From positions 1 through 41,252 of IMG/VR virus record IMGVR_UViG_3300021961_000006: a stretch of DNA of 41,252 nt; one strand, given 5' to 3'. Below are positions 18,610 through 38,064 of the stretch, piece by piece. Below the pieces are notes generated by a model. It did not search any database and was not told the DNA's origin. It worked only from the letters and a program-made list of their open reading frames with translations. The position numbers and the translations under genes were made by a program. The stretch is from a virus. Within the stretch, counting starts at the first letter, position 1. The number at the start of each line of letters is the position of its first letter.

Positions 18610-18625
18610 CCAATTACTTAATTGG
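18610..18625 (-). repeat. Inverted repeat at the RNR stop codon
   Basis: CCAATTA(AG)TAATTGG, a perfect 7-bp inverted repeat covering the RNR stop codon. A T-run (ATTTTTTC) comes about nine bases later, so it is at best a weak terminator just upstream of the late promoter; it may instead be a protein site. Confidence 0.4.
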
Positions 18626-20584
18626 ACATGCACCCGTTGCACACTCGTCATTCTCTAGTTCAATCAATGAGTTACTGTCATCGAGGGAGATTGGCTGAAG
18701 AGTTGAAGCATATGCTTCGTATACCTCTTTAGTAACAACCTCTTGTGGAAGATATAAATACCCAAGATCCTTAGCTGACTTAGTAGGATCAGCTCTAAAT
18801 AAGAAACTTACACCAACATAATTATCCCAGTTGTCTAACAACCAATCGATGATTGCTGGTACTTCATCAACCGAGTAACTAATCGTGGCTGATACATTCT
18901 GCTGACACCATGATTTCATCAGCATCTTGTATCGCTCGAGCTGCTCTATTGCTGTCTCGAGGTTTACCTCAAGTTCCTTCCCGTCCTTCTCGACTCGATC
19001 AAACGGAACATCCATCCACTGTACTGGGAATGTAATTAGCACTGCATCTGGGTCACTAGGATTCTCTATCACCTTATAGCCTGAGGCCCTACACAAGGGG
19101 ACCAACGGATCATGCTTAGAGAAGTTCACATTGTTAAAGATGTAGCGTCCTAGAGGCTTGTGGAGGCCCTCAGGGGTATCCATGATCTTACTTACAGTGC
19201 CACTAGGTTTGATGGTGGTGACGTTCTTAGGCCGAGGAAGACCTAGCTCATCAGCCATAGAGTATGCACCTGCGGTAGCGGTACGCTTGAGGTCCTCATA
19301 GTCATATGGAGATAAGTCAGGTCTACGAACTACACCTGTAATACCTACACCACATAAGCGAAGGAATTCATTATTAAGATGCCATGCTTCTTGAAGGATG
19401 CCATCTCGAAGATTGACACAGGTCTGCCTGTAATTTGCTCGAGCTGCTACCTCGATAGCTCTGCGTAGAGCATATGAGTTACCTTTGAATTTACCTACGT
19501 CAATTTCTGTAAGGTTACAAAAAGAGCGGTTGGATAATAAAATTTCCGCGCACGGGTTTACACCTTTAAACCAAGGAGCTCTTTTAGATGCAGCCTCGGC
19601 ATTGATAAATCCTGGCTCTGAACCTCCTGCCTCTACCATCAAGTGAAAGATGTGCTCGAGGTCTTTCTTTGCTGGCTTATGCTTAAACAACAGCGAGTTG
19701 TTTGACTGAGCGCGTTGGATGTTATGTTCCCAATAGTTTTTCTTAGCTACTGCAAACTCTTCCCATTCATCTTCACCATAGTTAAACAAAGCAATCTCTG
19801 CGGATCTCCGAGAAGATAGAACTGTGCCTAGCCAGTTTACAATGTCCAGGATATCAATCCTTTGAAGCAGACTACCTGCTCTTTTGTTGAGGATTTCTGT
19901 GATAGCTGTGTATGCTTTAGCTATTGCCTCATCGCCTGAGGATATCCATCCGTAACCTTTAAGCCTGTCACCTGCAGGGCGGATCTGAGAGAAGTCCAGG
20001 ACAAGTTCATCGGCTGGGTAGGGGTGAGCTAAGAGCTTGCCTACAGATTTAGCCCAAGCCTCCGCAGAGTCTCCAACTGTGATCGTCCAAACTCCATTCT
20101 GAAATGTTTCTTGGTTGTGCTCAACACCACCTTTGGAATCCCTCGTGGATCTAACCACAGTTACTTTTTTAATTGGTTTACTAAAACCAGTAAGAGCTCC
20201 AATGATAGGACGAAAGCCTACACCACAGCCCTGGAGAAGTAGCCAGAGTACATCAACTACATCCTGTACATTTTCAACGTGAGTAAATGAGCAATTAAAT
20301 TGTGAGGCTTCTCGCTTCTTAGATACTGAAGTTCCTCCTAGCCACAGCGTTCTACCTGCTGTTAGCATCTTACGCTCGAGCATCAAGGTGCGTAGTTCTT
20401 CTAGTTCTTCTAGCTCCTTAGTGTTTAGTTCTGCGTTCTTAGCTCTCTCCCATAGCCACTGTTGGTGACTAATAACTCGGGCTACTGTTTCTTCCCAAGT
20501 CTCAAATATTTTTCCTTCTTCGTCTTTTGGTCGGTTGTACGTTCGTCTTGTTATGAGCTGCGCTCTCAGGGAAAAGTCTGTCAT
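18614..20584 (-). CDS. nrdJ: Ribonucleotide reductase, class II monomeric (adenosylcobalamin-dependent)
   Basis: 656 aa from ATG 20584 (MTDFSLRAQL); an upstream in-frame TTG is less likely. It reduces ribonucleoside triphosphates to deoxy forms for phage DNA synthesis. Seen: active-site pair Cys in SQFNCSFTHV, the loop NPCAEILLSNRSFCNLTEID with the radical Cys and Glu of NPCxE, and a C-terminal CATGACPIK with the CxxxxC redox pair that recharges the active site in the Lactobacillus-type monomeric enzyme. No NrdB-like partner is encoded, which fits class II. It needs host or environmental B12. The start overlaps the upstream small gene by 83 bases. Confidence 0.93.
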   Translation of the reverse strand: MTDFSLRAQLITRRTYNRPKDEEGKIFETWEETVARVISHQQWLWERAKNAELNTKELEELEELRTLMLERKMLTAGRTLWLGGTSVSKKREASQFNCSFTHVENVQDVVDVLWLLLQGCGVGFRPIIGALTGFSKPIKKVTVVRSTRDSKGGVEHNQETFQNGVWTITVGDSAEAWAKSVGKLLAHPYPADELVLDFSQIRPAGDRLKGYGWISSGDEAIAKAYTAITEILNKRAGSLLQRIDILDIVNWLGTVLSSRRSAEIALFNYGEDEWEEFAVAKKNYWEHNIQRAQSNNSLLFKHKPAKKDLEHIFHLMVEAGGSEPGFINAEAASKRAPWFKGVNPCAEILLSNRSFCNLTEIDVGKFKGNSYALRRAIEVAARANYRQTCVNLRDGILQEAWHLNNEFLRLCGVGITGVVRRPDLSPYDYEDLKRTATAGAYSMADELGLPRPKNVTTIKPSGTVSKIMDTPEGLHKPLGRYIFNNVNFSKHDPLVPLCRASGYKVIENPSDPDAVLITFPVQWMDVPFDRVEKDGKELEVNLETAIEQLERYKMLMKSWCQQNVSATISYSVDEVPAIIDWLLDNWDNYVGVSFLFRADPTKSAKDLGYLYLPQEVVTKEVYEAYASTLQPISLDDSNSLIELENDECATGACPIK

Positions 20585-20786
20585 AGTTCTCAATTATAAA
20601 TTCTAGGTAATGTTTTGCTTTTTCAAAATCTTCAACGCCCCCTTTGTAGGGAGCGCGAAGAACGTACTTGATGATATTGCCTTGCCAAAAATTTAAACCC
20701 CAGGACTCGATGATATCCCAGGGTTGCATTGGACTTACTGCACGGTAGTGACTTCCAGCGACTTGGCGATCACGGGAGGTTGCCAT
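20502..20786 (-). CDS. DUF3310-type small protein
   Basis: 94 aa. The core DRQVAGSHYRAVSPMQPWDI, then IESWGLNFWQGNIIKYVLRA, then EDFEKAKHYLEFIIENYDRL, fits the DUF3310 family found in many phages, where it is linked with nucleotide metabolism but has no settled biochemistry. A good ribosome site (GGAAGG) precedes ATG 20786. The last residues are strongly basic (PTKRRRRKNI). It overlaps the exonuclease gene by 52 bases upstream and RNR by 83 bases downstream, unusually long overlaps for this genome. Confidence 0.85.
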   Translation of the reverse strand: MATSRDRQVAGSHYRAVSPMQPWDIIESWGLNFWQGNIIKYVLRAPYKGGVEDFEKAKHYLEFIIENYDRLFPESAAHNKTNVQPTKRRRRKNI

Positions 20787-29928: not shown

Positions 29929-30015
29929 TGGTGTGGGCGACAGGACTCGAACCTGCACTCCGTATATGGAAGAGGGTTTTAAGCCCTCTGTGTCTACCTA
30001 TTCCACCACGCCCAC
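29929..30015 (-). tRNA. tRNA-Leu (anticodon UAA), full length with CCA; likely attP core
   Basis: Minus strand 87 nt. Acceptor GTGGGCG/CGCCCAC, seven perfect pairs, discriminator A and encoded CCA. D-arm region GGTGGAATAGGTAGAC, as in bacterial tRNA-Leu. Anticodon arm GAGGG-CTTAAAA-CCCTC gives anticodon TAA. Class II variable arm TCCATATACGGA. T-arm GCAGG-TTCGAGT-CCTGT. It sits in the gap between integrase/HNH and RNA polymerase, where podoviral integrases of cyanophages and pelagiphages have a tRNA-Leu-derived attP. A complete tRNA, not just a 3' part, means that it could be functional, supply the host after integration, or both. Confidence 0.95.
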
Positions 30016-30038: not shown

Positions 30039-30128
30039 TGTCACTGACTACGATAAATCAATAACTTAAGAGGAAACCACTGACAGTTCTGTCACAGTTA
30101 CCTGTCACAAGCTGTCACCCTGTGTCAC
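30039..30128. repeat. TGTCAC repeat array, candidate integrase arm sites
   Basis: TGTCAC occurs at 30039, 30090, 30103, 30113 and 30123; the last four are spaced 13, 10 and 10 bases, about one helical turn. An inverted half TGACAG lies at 30081. The array fills the gap between HNH gene and tRNA, the expected place for integrase arm-type or excisionase sites next to attP. The final copy overlaps the end of the HNH gene. Confidence 0.6.
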
Positions 30129-30664
30129 GGCATATCGGGCCATTCCCGATTACCCTTACTAAGGTTTAACTGACTATCCAACAATTGTAGATTAGCCCAA
30201 GTGTGCAATCCACAAACTCTGTCTGACCTTAACGGAACAATATGATCTACAGAAAAACCAAATTGTCCTGCTTTCTCATACATAATTTGTATTAAATCCT
30301 GTTCTTGCTCAAACCACCCAGGAATTGCTTTTATTTTTTGACAACTATAAATAGCTTTGTAAGCACGGCTTTTTTCCTTATTGTTTTGATACCATTTCCT
30401 AGCCGCAACCTTTTTTTGATCCCTAACTTTTTCTAATTGTAAGGGAGTCATGTTTTCTACCAGCTTATATTTCCGATTGAGTTCTTTTGCTTTCTCTCGA
30501 TGTCTAGTTCTGTATGTTTGTTGATATATCCTTTTTTTAGATTTGTTTTTCGCAGCCCATTCTCGATTCCTTTGTAATTCTTTTTCTTTATTTTTTTTAT
30601 AGTAAAGTCTTCGAGCCTCACGCCGTTTTTCTAGTTGTTCCTCAGTCATAGTCTGTTTGATCAT
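30125..30664 (-). CDS. HNH endonuclease (free-standing)
   Basis: 179 aa. The first 110 residues are a highly charged Lys/Arg/Glu helical region (EKRREARRLYYKKNKEKELQ), probably DNA-binding. The C-terminus has the HNH motif FSVDHIVPLRSDRVCGLHTW followed by NLQLLDSQLNLSKGNR, with His, Asn and final Asn/His-type residues in order. It overlaps the integrase stop by ATGA. The gene is visibly A+T-richer and more Lys-rich than the integrase before it, which suggests acquisition as a homing-type nuclease. It might also help processing or host-genome attack; target unknown. Confidence 0.88.
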   Translation of the reverse strand: MIKQTMTEEQLEKRREARRLYYKKNKEKELQRNREWAAKNKSKKRIYQQTYRTRHREKAKELNRKYKLVENMTPLQLEKVRDQKKVAARKWYQNNKEKSRAYKAIYSCQKIKAIPGWFEQEQDLIQIMYEKAGQFGFSVDHIVPLRSDRVCGLHTWANLQLLDSQLNLSKGNREWPDMP

Positions 30665-31707
30665 GAGTTCACAACCTTTAGTTCTACTTTACGGAAGCTC
30701 TCCAGGGCTTCCTTACCTTCTCTTAGTTTAGCAGGAGCAAGGTGCATGTACCGAGAAGTGGTGAGGGGAGTCGTGTGACCCATCCACTCCTGGATAAACT
30801 GAGCTGACTTGTCCTGCATCGCCAAGCGTGAGGCACAGGTATGTCTCAGCATGTGGATCACAAACTGAGGGTCATCTGCCTTACCCATAGCTTCGCGCAG
30901 GGTATCCCAGTGCATCCTGATCTTGTTCTCAGTGAACTCATCGAAGAGCTTGTCGTTATGTCTGCGCTTCATGATGATCTCATGCACTCGGTCTGTCGCA
31001 GGGACAGCTCGAGCTCTCGAGGTCTTGGTCTCGTCAGGGTGTAGGTGCAACATACCCTCACGGTACTCACGAACCTTGAACGACATGAGCTCCCCCCTAC
31101 GGAAGCCTGTATCGATAGCGCAGATGATAAAGTCTCGTAGATTCAGAAGGCCCAAATGCTCGGCCTTGTTGAGAACCTCGAGCTCTTCCTCAGCGTTCAA
31201 CCAACGTACCCTGTGAGTCCCATTTGACCTACGCTTGATCCTCGGCATGGCCTCGATCCAGCCCTCATCAGCGGCTGTTTTGAGGAGCATCGAGAGAGCC
31301 GAGAGTTTCTTGTTGATTGTAGCTCCAGTATTCCCGAGGTCTTCCATCTCTTCGATGAGCTCTCGGATAACTTGGGTCGTGACCGCTGAACACAACGTAT
31401 CTTCACCCAATGATTTCATGACCCGCTCGGCTGCCTTGGTACTTGCGTCACTCTTACGCTGAGACCATGCGTCACGGCATGTGAGCCTGTAGGCTGAACG
31501 CAAAGTGTGATCTAGGGGGTGACCATAGGCCCTGTCCCTTGCGTGTCTTACAGGGCGTTCTGAGGGCTCTAGGATACCCTTGCGAACTAAGGTCTCCCTT
31601 TGCTCCGCAATCTTGGCTTCCTCCTCGGTATTAAAGCTCTGCCTGTAGCGGTTAGGACCACTACCAACAGAGGCCATGTACTTGTTACCTCTTTTGTAGA
31701 TTGGCAC
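30661..31707 (-). CDS. int: Tyrosine-family site-specific integrase
   Basis: 348 aa from GTG 31707 (VPIYKRGNKYMASVG), chosen because AGGAG lies five bases upstream; a longer in-frame extension would overlap the regulator gene entirely. Order: N-terminal arm-binding region, SAM-like core-binding domain about 80-165, catalytic domain from about 170. Catalytic set (numbered from the GTG): R203 in TGFRRGEL, K228 in DETKTSRAR, H285 and R288 in HMLRHTCASRLA, H311 in WMGHTTP, Y320 in TSRYMHLA. Complete, so probably active. It should recombine the phage tRNA-Leu site with the host tRNA gene. It overlaps the MarR-like gene by 23 bases, consistent with shared control. Confidence 0.95.
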   Translation of the reverse strand: MPIYKRGNKYMASVGSGPNRYRQSFNTEEEAKIAEQRETLVRKGILEPSERPVRHARDRAYGHPLDHTLRSAYRLTCRDAWSQRKSDASTKAAERVMKSLGEDTLCSAVTTQVIRELIEEMEDLGNTGATINKKLSALSMLLKTAADEGWIEAMPRIKRRSNGTHRVRWLNAEEELEVLNKAEHLGLLNLRDFIICAIDTGFRRGELMSFKVREYREGMLHLHPDETKTSRARAVPATDRVHEIIMKRRHNDKLFDEFTENKIRMHWDTLREAMGKADDPQFVIHMLRHTCASRLAMQDKSAQFIQEWMGHTTPLTTSRYMHLAPAKLREGKEALESFRKVELKVVNS

Positions 31708-32029
31708 GAGTTTCTCCTGTGAGTTGTTCAACAAAAGCTCTTCCCTTGGGGGTGAGCTCAATGATTTTCTTACGGCGTTCCATAGGGTCCTCCGTAGCAA
31801 TCACTAAGCCCAAACCCTTACGGTTATGAGCCACGGGTTTACTGAAGTTGCTGACGTAGCGAGAAGCCGAAGCCATCCCTACGCCAGCTCTATCAGCTAA
31901 TTCTTTTAGGCTTAACCCTTCGTTCTGGGCGATCAGCAACAGGCAATGGGCCTGAGCCATCGGCATGTCGGAGTCGATCTCCCTCAGTTTCGAGAGAAAC
32001 CCTAGACCTTCACGGATAGACAGCATCAT
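31685..32029 (-). CDS. MarR-like winged-helix regulator upstream of integrase
   Basis: 114 aa (two adjacent ATGs, 32029 and 32026; the second has the better spacing to AGAGG). A winged-helix core is seen: MAQAHCLLLIAQNEGLSLKE, then LADRAGVGMASASRYVSNFS (recognition helix), then the wing GLVIATEDPMERRKKIIELT and PKGRAFVEQL, which is the MarR signature DPxxRRxKxxxLTxxG. It heads the integrase transcript and has an inverted repeat over its promoter, so autoregulation is likely. With no CI- or Cro-like gene visible, this is the best candidate for the lysogeny switch. The effector is unknown. Confidence 0.88.
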   Translation of the reverse strand: MMLSIREGLGFLSKLREIDSDMPMAQAHCLLLIAQNEGLSLKELADRAGVGMASASRYVSNFSKPVAHNRKGLGLVIATEDPMERRKKIIELTPKGRAFVEQLTGETRANLQKR

Positions 32030-34980: not shown

Positions 34981-35247
34981 TTAAAATAAAACTCGTTTGA
35001 TGCTTTTCGGCGTGTTAGCCCTCGAGCCGTAAAACACAATTGCCATATCTCGCAGGATCTTTTTCGCGGCTCGGATTGAGTAATTAATTGGGATGAATTC
35101 ATCCGCCAATTTATTCTCTATCTTCTCAATGCGAATTGGATACTGCACAAATATGCACTGCGTCCACTTTCGGCCCCGCTCGATAACGAGGGCGTGACGG
35201 TGTTCGCAGGATTCTTTGCGGTGTAGAAATGTTTTAACTATTTGCAT
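34981..35247 (-). CDS. Hypothetical 88-aa early protein
   Basis: Started at ATG 35247 (MQIVKTFLHRKESCEHRHAL), because AAGGGG lies nine bases upstream and the longer frame would run into the preceding peptide gene. Contains RGRKWTQCIFVQYPIRIEKI and a basic helical C-terminus (YSIRAAKKILRDMAIVFYGS). His/Cys residues near the N-terminus (CEHRH) could bind a metal, but there is no clear motif. Not recognised. Confidence 0.7.
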   Translation of the reverse strand: MQIVKTFLHRKESCEHRHALVIERGRKWTQCIFVQYPIRIEKIENKLADEFIPINYSIRAAKKILRDMAIVFYGSRANTPKSIKRVLF

Positions 35248-35261
35248 ATTGTGGCCCCTTA

Positions 35262-35342
35262 CTATGAACAAAAAACTTGCAATAAAAAAGAAATCGCAAG
35301 GGATCCAACCAGCAAATAAAAAGGGAAGTGTGAGAGTTTCAT
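35262..35342 (-). CDS. 26-aa hydrophobic peptide, first early gene
   Basis: MKLSHFPFYLLVGSLAISFL, then LQVFCS: a single membrane helix. AAAGGAAA eight bases before ATG 35342 is the reason to accept so short a frame. It is the first frame after the noncoding region 35343-35778 and so probably the first early product; a leader peptide is an alternative. Confidence 0.5.
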   Translation of the reverse strand: MKLSHFPFYLLVGSLAISFLLQVFCS

Positions 35343-35778
35343 ATCGTGTTTCCTTTCGTTTTGTAGTTTATCGAAATGTCACGATTAAAAACTTAACATG
35401 AAACAATTCCAAAAGTAAAACAATTTTTGATCTGTAAGTGTGGCATGGGTGCAACAGGTGCCACCCTGATGATGGGCTCGAGGTGGGCTTAGGGTGGGCT
35501 CGAGGTGTACCCCCGAGAAAAAAACGACTGATACAAAAACCCACAAACACGAACACAAACGAACGGCTCGAGCTCGAGGGCCTGCATTGGCTCGATATGC
35601 TCGAGAATAGATATTTAATCCGTTGGAACGCTAGGTAAATAAAGGGTTTTTGGTGGGTTCGTGACAGTTCATTGTGACACATACCCCCACCCCCCTATGA
35701 TCGCGCATAGAGTCGCAGGGGCCTACGGGGGGACTTCGCACCAGTCACCCCCGCGTTACCCTTTTCAGATTTTTGTAA
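35343..35778. other. 436-bp noncoding region with CTCGAG cluster and repeats
   Basis: No convincing gene. It holds five CTCGAG sites (35477, 35499, 35567, 35573, 35600) with two copies of GGGCTCGAGGTG, an inverted repeat GTGGCA...TGCCAC around 35443-35467, GTGACA twice 13 bases apart (35661, 35674), and a strong hairpin at 35727-35752. It lies between the end of the late genes and the start of the early genes. A clear sigma70 promoter was not found. Likely contents: early control, the junction of physical ends, or a packaging site. Confidence 0.6.
35727..35752. terminator. GC hairpin at the end of the late region
   Basis: GGGGGGACT(TCGCACC)AGTCACCCCC, about a 9-bp stem with one bulged base. 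It has no U-tract on the minus strand, so it may be an RNA-end or DNA-processing hairpin rather than a simple terminator. It follows the small membrane-protein gene at 35779. Confidence 0.5.
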
Positions 35779-35970
35779 CTAAACTTTTTGACTGACCCAA
35801 GGTTTCCCCAGGACCCACCAAAGAACACCCATAGCCACCCCGGTCATCCAGGGCTCACCCAAGGTCTTATCTGCGTATGCAGCAGCTACACCTACGAGAA
35901 CCATGAGTACATACTTGTTACCTGTAAGTACTTCCTTCAACATCATTAGTACATCTTTAATCATATCCAT
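35779..35970 (-). CDS. Small membrane protein after terminase (gp19.5-position)
   Basis: 63 aa: MDMIKDVLMMLKEVLTGNKY, then VLMVLVGVAAAYADKTLGEP, then WMTGVAMGVLWWVLGKPW. An amphipathic start and two hydrophobic helices. T7 gene 19.5, a small membrane protein, occupies this place between the terminase and the right end, though sequence similarity is not evident. AAGGAG about ten bases before the ATG. A holin-like or envelope role is possible, with a better holin candidate at 38336. Confidence 0.7.
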   Translation of the reverse strand: MDMIKDVLMMLKEVLTGNKYVLMVLVGVAAAYADKTLGEPWMTGVAMGVLWWVLGKPWVSQKV

Positions 35971-35998
35971 AAAGATATAACTCCTTATTAAGAAATAG

Positions 35999-36062
35999 CC
36001 CTAGGAGCCTCGTAGAAGCCCTACAAGCCACGCAAAGGGTTGACCCTAGGGTTACCCCTAGG
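35999..36062. repeat. Three CCCTAGG repeats in noncoding DNA
   Basis: CCCTAGG at 35999, 36044 and 36056, with the near-repeat GGGTT(ACCC) between them, in the 133-base gap between two small genes. Part of the same repeat-rich zone as 36303-36335. Nothing else is visible in this gap. Confidence 0.5.
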
Positions 36063-36103
36063 TTGTCCTTTAGATTCGATTGTAGAGCCTTTAAAAGCCC
36101 TGT

Positions 36104-36235
36104 TTAAAACATGAAGATAATTCTGATAATGAATACATCGACTACCAGCATAGAGTAACCCTCAGGGTTATCCTCAGCTCCTATCAGTTCTATGCCTATA
36201 GCACACCCTGATATAAAAGAGAGCACACAGTTCAT
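36104..36235 (-). CDS. 43-aa small membrane-associated protein downstream of phage promoter
   Basis: MNCVLSFISGCAIGIELIGA, then EDNPEGYSMLVVDVFIIRII, ending FMF. An N-terminal hydrophobic segment, a short acidic turn and a hydrophobic C-terminus. AAGGA lies eight bases before ATG 36235. It is the first frame after the promoter at 36346-36362 and sits within the putative terminal region. I have an impression of similar tiny proteins (IGIEL...VDxxxxRIxF) in T7-like phages but cannot name the family. Confidence 0.6.
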   Translation of the reverse strand: MNCVLSFISGCAIGIELIGAEDNPEGYSMLVVDVFIIRIIFMF

Positions 36236-36302
36236 CTAAGGTGTCCTTAAGTTATCTTAGGTATATATCTTTATATTTACTTATATATTAACTTATAAAG
36301 AG

Positions 36303-36335
36303 ACCTATAGTTTACCTATAGTTAACCTTTAGTTC
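36303..36335. repeat. Tandem 11-bp repeats, T7-like terminal-type
   Basis: ACCTATAGTTT / ACCTATAGTTA / ACCTTTAGTTC, three tandem 11-base units. T7 has arrays of CCTAAAG-type repeats next to its terminal redundancy; these have the same CCTxxAG core and lie in the corresponding place. Confidence 0.65.
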
Positions 36336-36345
36336 TCCCTTACCC

Positions 36346-36362
36346 CTACTGTGCAACCTAAT
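36346..36362 (-). promoter_or_regulatory. Putative phage promoter after large terminase
   Basis: Minus strand ATTAGGTTGCACAGTAG, identical over 17 bases to 27250-27266, followed by GGG. It would drive the 43-aa and 63-aa genes and transcription across the genome-end region. Confidence 0.75.
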
Positions 36363-36381
36363 TATAAGATATTGATAATTA

Positions 36382-38064
36382 TTACCTTATTGATGAGTTA
36401 CTTCCCATCCAGGTCTTTTTCTTAGGTTTAGAACCTAAGGCATTGTTTACAAAGGCTCTTAGTTCTTTGTCTAAGAACTTTGTCTTAATAGCAGAGGCTG
36501 CTTTGTCTTGGTCTTTAGCCATGTGCTCGACCCAGTACCCTACAGCCATAGCTAGGGCATCTAACCTATCGTCATGGATCAATGATCCTCTGTCTCTGGT
36601 TAGTCTAGTTAGCTGGTAGAAGAGGGAGTACTTAACATCCTTAGCTGACTCAAAGTCATCATTAATTAACTTCTGGTCAACTATGAGCCTATGGTTAGAT
36701 ATGACAGGCTCGAGGGTGTCTATAATCCTGAGCTCCTTCTGAGAGCTATGCTTAACCTCTTCGATAAGGCATCTGTGGTGCTTCGACATGATAGGGGTGA
36801 GGAGCTTGGTGTACATACCGTCACCAAAGTTAGCCTCGACTATCACATGGTTCACCTGATGCTTCTTAGCGAGCCTCGAGAGAGTCTCCAAAGTCTGATC
36901 TGAGTAGCCACCCATAAGTCCACCACAGGCCACTAGGTAGAGATTACCAGCTAGTACCTTGATAATGGCGTAGCCAGTTTCATCCAAGCCTCGACCTGAG
37001 GGGTCGATAGACATGACACAGCCTGTATACTCTGTCATATCGTCAGAGTGCCACATGGGTCTGTAGTATCTGTCTCCAGTAAGGGCTACGTTAGGGATAT
37101 CATTGACCACGAGCTCCGGGGCAGCAGCCCAGGCTAGCTTACTATGGCCCATCTCGGGGTTCAGGTTCATGATCATAAGGTCCTGGACCTTCAGAGGATA
37201 CCTATCCGCGTCACTTAAGCTAGTATCGAGCTGGAACTGTAGAGCAAATCCAGCTCTACCGTAGGATGCCCTACGTTCCATAAGGTCTTCCTCAGAGAAT
37301 CTCCTGGGATCTGTAGGTTTTCCTACGTTATCTGGAGAGTTCTCGAGGTCTATGCTGATCTTAGGGGCTAAATTACCTCTGTAAGAGAGTATTTTAGGTA
37401 TCTCAGGGTAAAGAGCAGGCCAGATGCGAGTCTCATACCCTCGTTCTGTGAGGGCATTGTACAGTGACATCTCGAGCTGGGGAGTCCCAAGGTAGATAAT
37501 CCGAGAATTCTCCAGGGGTTTCAACACAGAGTCGAACTCTTTGACAAGCTCAGAGAGCTTATCCCTCATCATTTGAGTAGCAGAGTTCCCTGGAGTCTCG
37601 ATATCGTCAGCTACGATAATGTCAGCACGAGATCCTGTGAGCTGACCTGTGATACCCACGGACTTTACCGAGGGAGAGTGGTCAGCAATGGCAGGACCCA
37701 CATCAAAGGCTATGACAGAATCCCTCTGTCCTTCCTTGGGTCGGAGATGTTGTAAGAGTTCCATCTCGTTAATGAGCCTTTTGACGAACGTGGAGAACGC
37801 ATCGGCCCGTTCCTTCGACGCTGAGACAACCAAAATCTTTTTTTGCGGGTCATTCAGTAGTGTCCAGATAACAAATGCTGAAGTTAAGAATGATTTACCT
37901 ACGCCTCGGAAAGCCTGAATCATAGAACGCTTAGGGCCGTACTGTAGGTACTGACAGATGTCATATTGTACAGGGGTTGGCTCTGGTAGATTCAGGTGTT
38001 TCCAGACGATAAACGCAAATACTCGAAAGTCTGTTAGGACTCTCGATTGATCATTAGTAGACAT
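36382..38064 (-). CDS. 19: Terminase large subunit (T7 gp19)
   Basis: 560 aa (T7 gp19 is 586). Seen: Walker A region SMIQAFRGVGKSFLTSAFVI, Walker B region SRADIIVADDIETPGNS (acidic pair), and coupling segment SRIIYLGTPQLEMSLYNALT. Nuclease domain with MSIDPSGRGLDETGYAIIKV (first Asp), HVIVEANFGDGMYTKLL, and IHDDRLDALAMAVGYW (last Asp pair). It drives DNA into the prohead and cuts concatemers. It follows terminase small by eight bases and is followed by noncoding DNA, as in T7. Confidence 0.97.
   Translation of the reverse strand: MSTNDQSRVLTDFRVFAFIVWKHLNLPEPTPVQYDICQYLQYGPKRSMIQAFRGVGKSFLTSAFVIWTLLNDPQKKILVVSASKERADAFSTFVKRLINEMELLQHLRPKEGQRDSVIAFDVGPAIADHSPSVKSVGITGQLTGSRADIIVADDIETPGNSATQMMRDKLSELVKEFDSVLKPLENSRIIYLGTPQLEMSLYNALTERGYETRIWPALYPEIPKILSYRGNLAPKISIDLENSPDNVGKPTDPRRFSEEDLMERRASYGRAGFALQFQLDTSLSDADRYPLKVQDLMIMNLNPEMGHSKLAWAAAPELVVNDIPNVALTGDRYYRPMWHSDDMTEYTGCVMSIDPSGRGLDETGYAIIKVLAGNLYLVACGGLMGGYSDQTLETLSRLAKKHQVNHVIVEANFGDGMYTKLLTPIMSKHHRCLIEEVKHSSQKELRIIDTLEPVISNHRLIVDQKLINDDFESAKDVKYSLFYQLTRLTRDRGSLIHDDRLDALAMAVGYWVEHMAKDQDKAASAIKTKFLDKELRAFVNNALGSKPKKKTWMGSNSSIR

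Follow-up and report, generated by a model that had tools for sequence, protein, structure and literature searches.

Clustered CTCGAG palindromes at a probable T7-type terminal-repeat junction of an uncultured temperate-type phage

Gene content and setting of the palindrome cluster

The window, that is, the whole stretch of DNA analysed, is a 41,252-base IMG/VR record of a T7-like phage whose genes lie on the minus strand. It contains genes for a single-subunit RNA polymerase, a family A DNA polymerase, a T7-type primase-helicase, endonuclease I, SSB, the connector, the capsid and the terminase, together with a temperate gene set composed of a MarR-like regulator (31685-32029), a tyrosine integrase (30661-31800) and a tRNA-Leu (29929-30015) located before the RNA polymerase. 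The regulator gave a score below the Pfam cut-off and was assigned to PHROG 9665, transcriptional regulator, with an E value of 2e-21. The tRNA-Leu was not informative as a pointer to the host, its best match being 84% over part of the gene. A ribonucleotide reductase gene (18614-20593, minus strand) is found inside the DNA metabolism block.

The region under study is bordered by the terminase large subunit gene (36382..38064, minus strand), the final large late gene before the junction, and by the first early ORF (34981..35271, minus strand), which encodes 96 aa and showed no family match. The terminase large subunit shares 93% identity with those of the contigs L002/L003 and 65% with DNA maturase B of Bordetella phage BB8. 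The sequence-only reading had placed five CTCGAG sites in noncoding DNA between the late end and the first early gene; two minus-strand features, the terminase end at 36382 and the early ORF start at 35271, agree with this placement, and no supported gene was recognized in the interval. The plus-strand frame 35438-35638 and the overlapping minus-strand frame 35368-35682 gave no Pfam match, and tblastn searches outside the window returned weak echoes only, in the nearest relative, with best E values of 0.045 and 0.032, respectively. The plus-strand frame, whose conservation as a protein had been named as the outcome that would overturn the proposal of a binding cluster, was thus not found to be a conserved protein, and a protein-coding origin of the sites was rejected, neither a family assignment nor a convincing homologue having been obtained. 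A 63-aa ORF (35779-35970, minus strand) with a membrane-spanning look by eye adjoins the terminal repeat described below on its late side; the relative L082 lacks it and carries a different 85-aa ORF in its place.

All five CTCGAG sites were confirmed at exactly 35477, 35499, 35567, 35573 and 35600. In the interval 35272-36381 the five observed copies compare with 0.095 expected under a first-order Markov model, and if the 45 sites of the genome were scattered randomly, the probability of at least five falling in some 129-bp span would be 0.00046. The clustering is therefore beyond chance, even given the 45 genome sites. The copies at 35567 and 35573 form a single tandem, CTCGAGCTCGAG, and those at 35477 and 35499, spaced by 22 bp, are both units of a single 11-bp repeat array; since one tandem and one array account for four of them, the five sites do not represent five independent events.

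The probable terminal-repeat junction and its relatives

Comparison with characterized phages identified the region as a probable T7-like concatemer (terminal-repeat) junction, with packaging cuts and a short-repeat array. It lies between the terminase gene and the first early gene, as does a T7-type junction. The left cut motif ACAAAAATCTGA, followed by 7 nt and the start of the terminal repeat (35752..35776, minus strand), matches those of Escherichia phage T7 (NC_001604) and of Rhizobium phage Pasto (MT708545). With the cut marked by a slash, the left junction reads AAAAATCTGA AAAGGGT/AACGCG in the window, AAAAATCTGA GTGACTA/TCTCAC in T7 (own record) and AAAAATCCGA GACACTG/AACTCG in Pasto, so that the window shares with T7 the motif AAAAATCTGA, from which 7 nt lead to the start of the predicted repeat. 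On the opposite side the right cut motif ATCAGTCGTTTTTTTC is located at 35517..35532 (minus strand), and the repeat would end just before its ATCAGT. The right junction is GGTTTTTGT/ATCAGTCGTTTTTTTC in the window, TCTGTGTCCCT/ATCTGTTACAG in T7 (edge letters TCCCT/ATCTGTTACAG) and CTCTCCCT/ATCTGTTTCACC in Pasto (edge letters TCCCT/ATCTGTTTCACC). T7 is cut before ATC(A/T)GT; the window has the motif at the corresponding place, and its cut was positioned by this correspondence. The motif ATC(A/G/T)GT is present in 17 aligned junctions, and the motif-to-motif distance was 206-286 bp in the 17 aligned loci, the window included.

The left cut of the window was placed by the rule derived from T7 and Pasto, 7 nt after the motif. 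From both motifs, the 7-nt rule and the spacing in the aligned junctions, we infer a direct terminal repeat (DTR) of 225 bp running from 35757 to 35533 (35533..35757, minus strand), homologous to the DTRs of T7, Pasto and Pseudomonas phage LUZ100 (OP329100) and present once in this record. The physical ends of the genome very probably coincide with this repeat. When the right cut motif was reduced to its 15-base core and used as a query, only the known relatives of the junction were recovered, other matches having been set aside on account of flanks that looked unrelated. A 127-bp end overlap in the BB8 record was not accepted as a mapped DTR; a word length of 127 is widely used in assembly, and the overlap may be an assembly remnant.

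T7 shares with the window the motif AAAAATCTGA followed by 7 nt and the cut, the DTR, the second cut before ATC(A/T)GT and, immediately beyond the DTR, an array of 7-base repeats, followed by host promoters. In T7 the copies of CCTAAAG or CCTAACG occur at +15, 28, 41, 53, 66 and 79 after the DTR; this CCTAAAG-type array beside the DTR bears the name SRL. The two junctions differ in the length of the DTR (160 bp in T7, 225 bp, as inferred, in the window), in the repeat, with a core CCTAAAG and a period of 12-13 in T7 against CCTCGAG/CCTAAGC and a period of 11 in the window, and in the lack of CTCGAG at the T7 junction. Pasto is a T7-like phage with an integrase, reported to lysogenise (PMC10134795), and both of its cut motifs match those of the window; a terminal repeat of 271 bp was predicted for it by PhageTerm. 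Its array units are, however, GCACCCATCGGC-like, and it has no CTCGAG cluster. LUZ100 has the same temperate gene set as the window (PMC10134795), that is, an integrase, a MarR-like regulator and a tRNA-Leu before the RNA polymerase, as well as an annotated DTR of 244 bp in the same place and CCTCAAG units near it. These units precede the DTR, unlike those of the window. Against the junction proposed here, the annotated boundary departs by 11 nt from the T7 rule, and ATCAGT is missing at the right end. The closest relatives found, the IMG/VR contigs L082/L003 (terminase 93%), have the same layout and an identical right cut motif ATCAGTCGTTTTTTTC, but differ in the array unit, GATACCCCAAC, also repeated at 11 bp, and in having neither any of the three CTCGAG sites of the DTR nor a genome-wide CTCGAG excess.

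Read in the sense of the phage, the proposed order is the terminase gene, a cut motif, the 225-bp repeat from 35757 to 35533, the second cut motif, the array from 35507 to 35475, an early promoter and the early genes. A possible host-type early promoter at 35395..35423 (minus strand) is a weak match, suggested by its position and by the counterparts TTGTAA-17-TATAAT in L005 and TTGCAA-17-TACAAT in L006 at the corresponding place; a sigma-70 scan of the window gave no match at 35395..35423. During packaging, both motifs would serve as cutting sites in head-to-tail concatemers, and copying of the repeat would provide each linear genome with it at both ends. In T7-like phages, concatemer cutting is described as sequence-specific and as falling where the right repeat ends (PMC3350473).

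The short-repeat array and the sites inside the predicted terminal repeat

The array adjoins the right cut motif on the early side, just outside the DTR, and is composed of three 11-bp units, CACCTCGAGCC CACCCTAAGCC CACCTCGAGCC (35475..35507, minus strand), which include the CTCGAG copies at 35477 and 35499; only three units are clear in the window. The self-match at a lag of 11 gave P = 0.002 in the window array and P < 0.05 in 14 of 15 loci, and an 11-bp periodicity was mostly absent inside the DTR (P < 0.05 in four of the 15 loci on the right side and in three on the left). The commonest 7-mer of the arrays is CCTCAAG, with 24 copies in eight of the 15 loci, and the two outer CTCGAG sites represent the form that the array unit takes in this phage, CCTCAAG being its form in relatives. 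As CCTCAAG is not palindromic, the palindrome is not what the array keeps. In the closest relative the only CTCGAG in 10 kb is found at the array start, where the T-run of the cut motif precedes it by 11 nt, against 13 nt in the window.

The remaining three sites, the tandem at 35567 and 35573 and the copy at 35600 (35567..35605), occupy the last 75 bp of the DTR. None of them is found in L082/L003, and we read them as lineage-specific DTR sequence in a phage whose whole genome is CTCGAG-rich. The alignment check suggested by the sequence-only reading, on whether the palindromes are kept, therefore spoke against a retained cluster both in the closest relative, with one CTCGAG in the region, and in the distant relatives with their non-palindromic array core. 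The element of this slot that is conserved is a small dyad, GGATTAAATATC (GGATTAAATATCC), at 35610..35621 (minus strand), whose arms covary across relatives (GGAT..ATCC, GCGAT..ATCGC, GAGAT..ATCTC). Other dyads are found in the slot, or in the DNA just past the cut motif, in relatives, for example CTGTN8ACAG in L005, L017, L027 and L059. This LexA-like sequence lies near the right cut motif in these four loci and in L009, is absent from the window there, and was counted nine times in 65 kb of terminal regions against seven times in 381 kb elsewhere, related loci being counted repeatedly.

The array units are spaced by about one helical turn, and the array could offer a stretch of multiple binding sites to the packaging or end-forming machinery beside the cut. 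We regard this predicted binding role as evenly balanced between being right and wrong; the literature consulted contained nothing on what the T7 short repeats do, nor any test of DNA binding by such arrays. The proposal of a protein-binding cluster was thus upheld in part, a packaging role being in keeping with the location at a T7-type junction, but not for the palindromes as retained binding sites. Packaging or end formation is the most likely role of the region.

Genome-wide excess of CTCGAG and other explanations of the cluster

The whole window contains 45 CTCGAG against 7.8 in dinucleotide shuffles (expectations 7.8-12), and its coding DNA 36 against about 14-14.5 in within-gene synonymous shuffles, an excess of ~2.5-fold. 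GAGCTC behaves similarly, with 36 copies in the whole window and 34 in coding DNA against 14.2 in synonymous shuffles (~2.4-fold), and CCWGG reaches 72 against 44 (1.6-fold) in coding DNA; of all the palindromes tested, these three show the largest upward deviations. The window avoids many others, and AAGCTT, AGATCT, TTCGAA, GGTACC and CCATGG are absent from its coding DNA. The excess of CTCGAG over codon expectation is thus genome-wide, as in a highly iterated palindrome (HIP-like). Codon preference alone was rejected as its cause, since the shuffles retain 14 copies against the 36 observed, and no correlation with neighbouring GC3 was seen beyond that of the shuffles. At 33 conserved Leu-Glu/Glu-Leu pairs in six genes, CTCGAG or GAGCTC is used 18 times in the window and never in the closest relative, and CTCGAG does not rank with the most over-represented palindromes in any relative locus above 9 kb. 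The lack in the relative would follow from a difference in host restriction, the excess in the window would not, and among the proteins scanned, which cover part of the ORFs, no phage methyltransferase or defence gene explaining the excess was seen.

It is a tenable, if tentative, explanation that the cluster is a local peak of this excess, imposed by the host or by some other selection, and that the palindromes have no local function. The whole-genome and coding counts, the use at the conserved pairs and the lack of any relative with such an excess are in its favour; the local density is nevertheless far above the genome average (P 0.00046), two sites are accounted for by the repeat array, and the excess is not seen in most of the remaining noncoding DNA. 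As regards the three inner sites, this explanation is compatible with that by a terminal-repeat junction.

It is improbable that the three sites within the DTR fold into a hairpin that serves in forming the ends there. The CTCGAG copies are able to pair mutually, a fold of -13.5 kcal/mol was predicted for the last 105 nt of the DTR, and some relatives have strong folds at this place (z -2.3 to -3.4). The z value is, however, only -1.7 (not significant) in the window and +0.3 in the closest relative, so that the fold is neither significant nor conserved, the conserved element being instead the small dyad, and a hairpin function was rejected.

It is still less probable that a repressor encoded by phage or host silences the early genes with CTCGAG as its operator, the five sites being its binding cluster. 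The palindromes are clustered upstream of early genes, the phage has the temperate gene set, with its MarR-like regulator, integrase and tRNA-Leu, and some relatives have other dyads, such as the LexA-like one, in the same slot. Against this, three of the five sites are missing in the closest relative, that is, the palindromes are not kept in close relatives as those of a repressor operator would be, 36 of the 45 CTCGAG lie within genes, most of those compared having been reached by synonymous change, and the clustered site upstream of the RNA polymerase is instead GTGACA, with five copies within 90 bp (30039-30128). One further GTGACA lies in the early leader (35377), and two GTGACA/TGTCAC within the DTR (35661 and 35674; 35660..35681, minus strand) are candidate phage-regulator sites; GTGACA is also found at corresponding places in L082. 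Sites on either side of the polymerase promoter have been proposed as targets of a MarR-type protein in temperate T7-like phages (PMC10134795). From this proposal, the placement of GTGACA and its presence in L082, GTGACA would seem a better operator candidate than CTCGAG for the MarR-like regulator. It is likewise very unlikely that CTCGAG, along with GAGCTC, has been selected as an iterated palindrome recognised by a DNA-binding or DNA-modifying protein of host or phage, the junction being its densest cluster and marking the genome ends.

The CTCGAG cluster is real and its setting ordinary, a T7-type "end of genome" junction in which the palindromes are not the conserved feature, and the window is a further example of an already known type of terminal junction. 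Sequence alone allowed the probable ends of this uncultured temperate-type genome of a T7-like phage to be placed, and the alignments indicate that a diverse clade shares both cut motifs of T7 and an early-side array of short repeats. Within this clade the array repeat changes, CCTAAAG with a period of 12-13 bp giving way to CCTCAAG with one of 11 bp, and the recurrence of arrays with a changing repeat makes the role of the array testable by comparison. The excess of one palindrome across the genome, against its absence at the Leu-Glu pairs of the closest relative, poses a small question on host restriction or selection.
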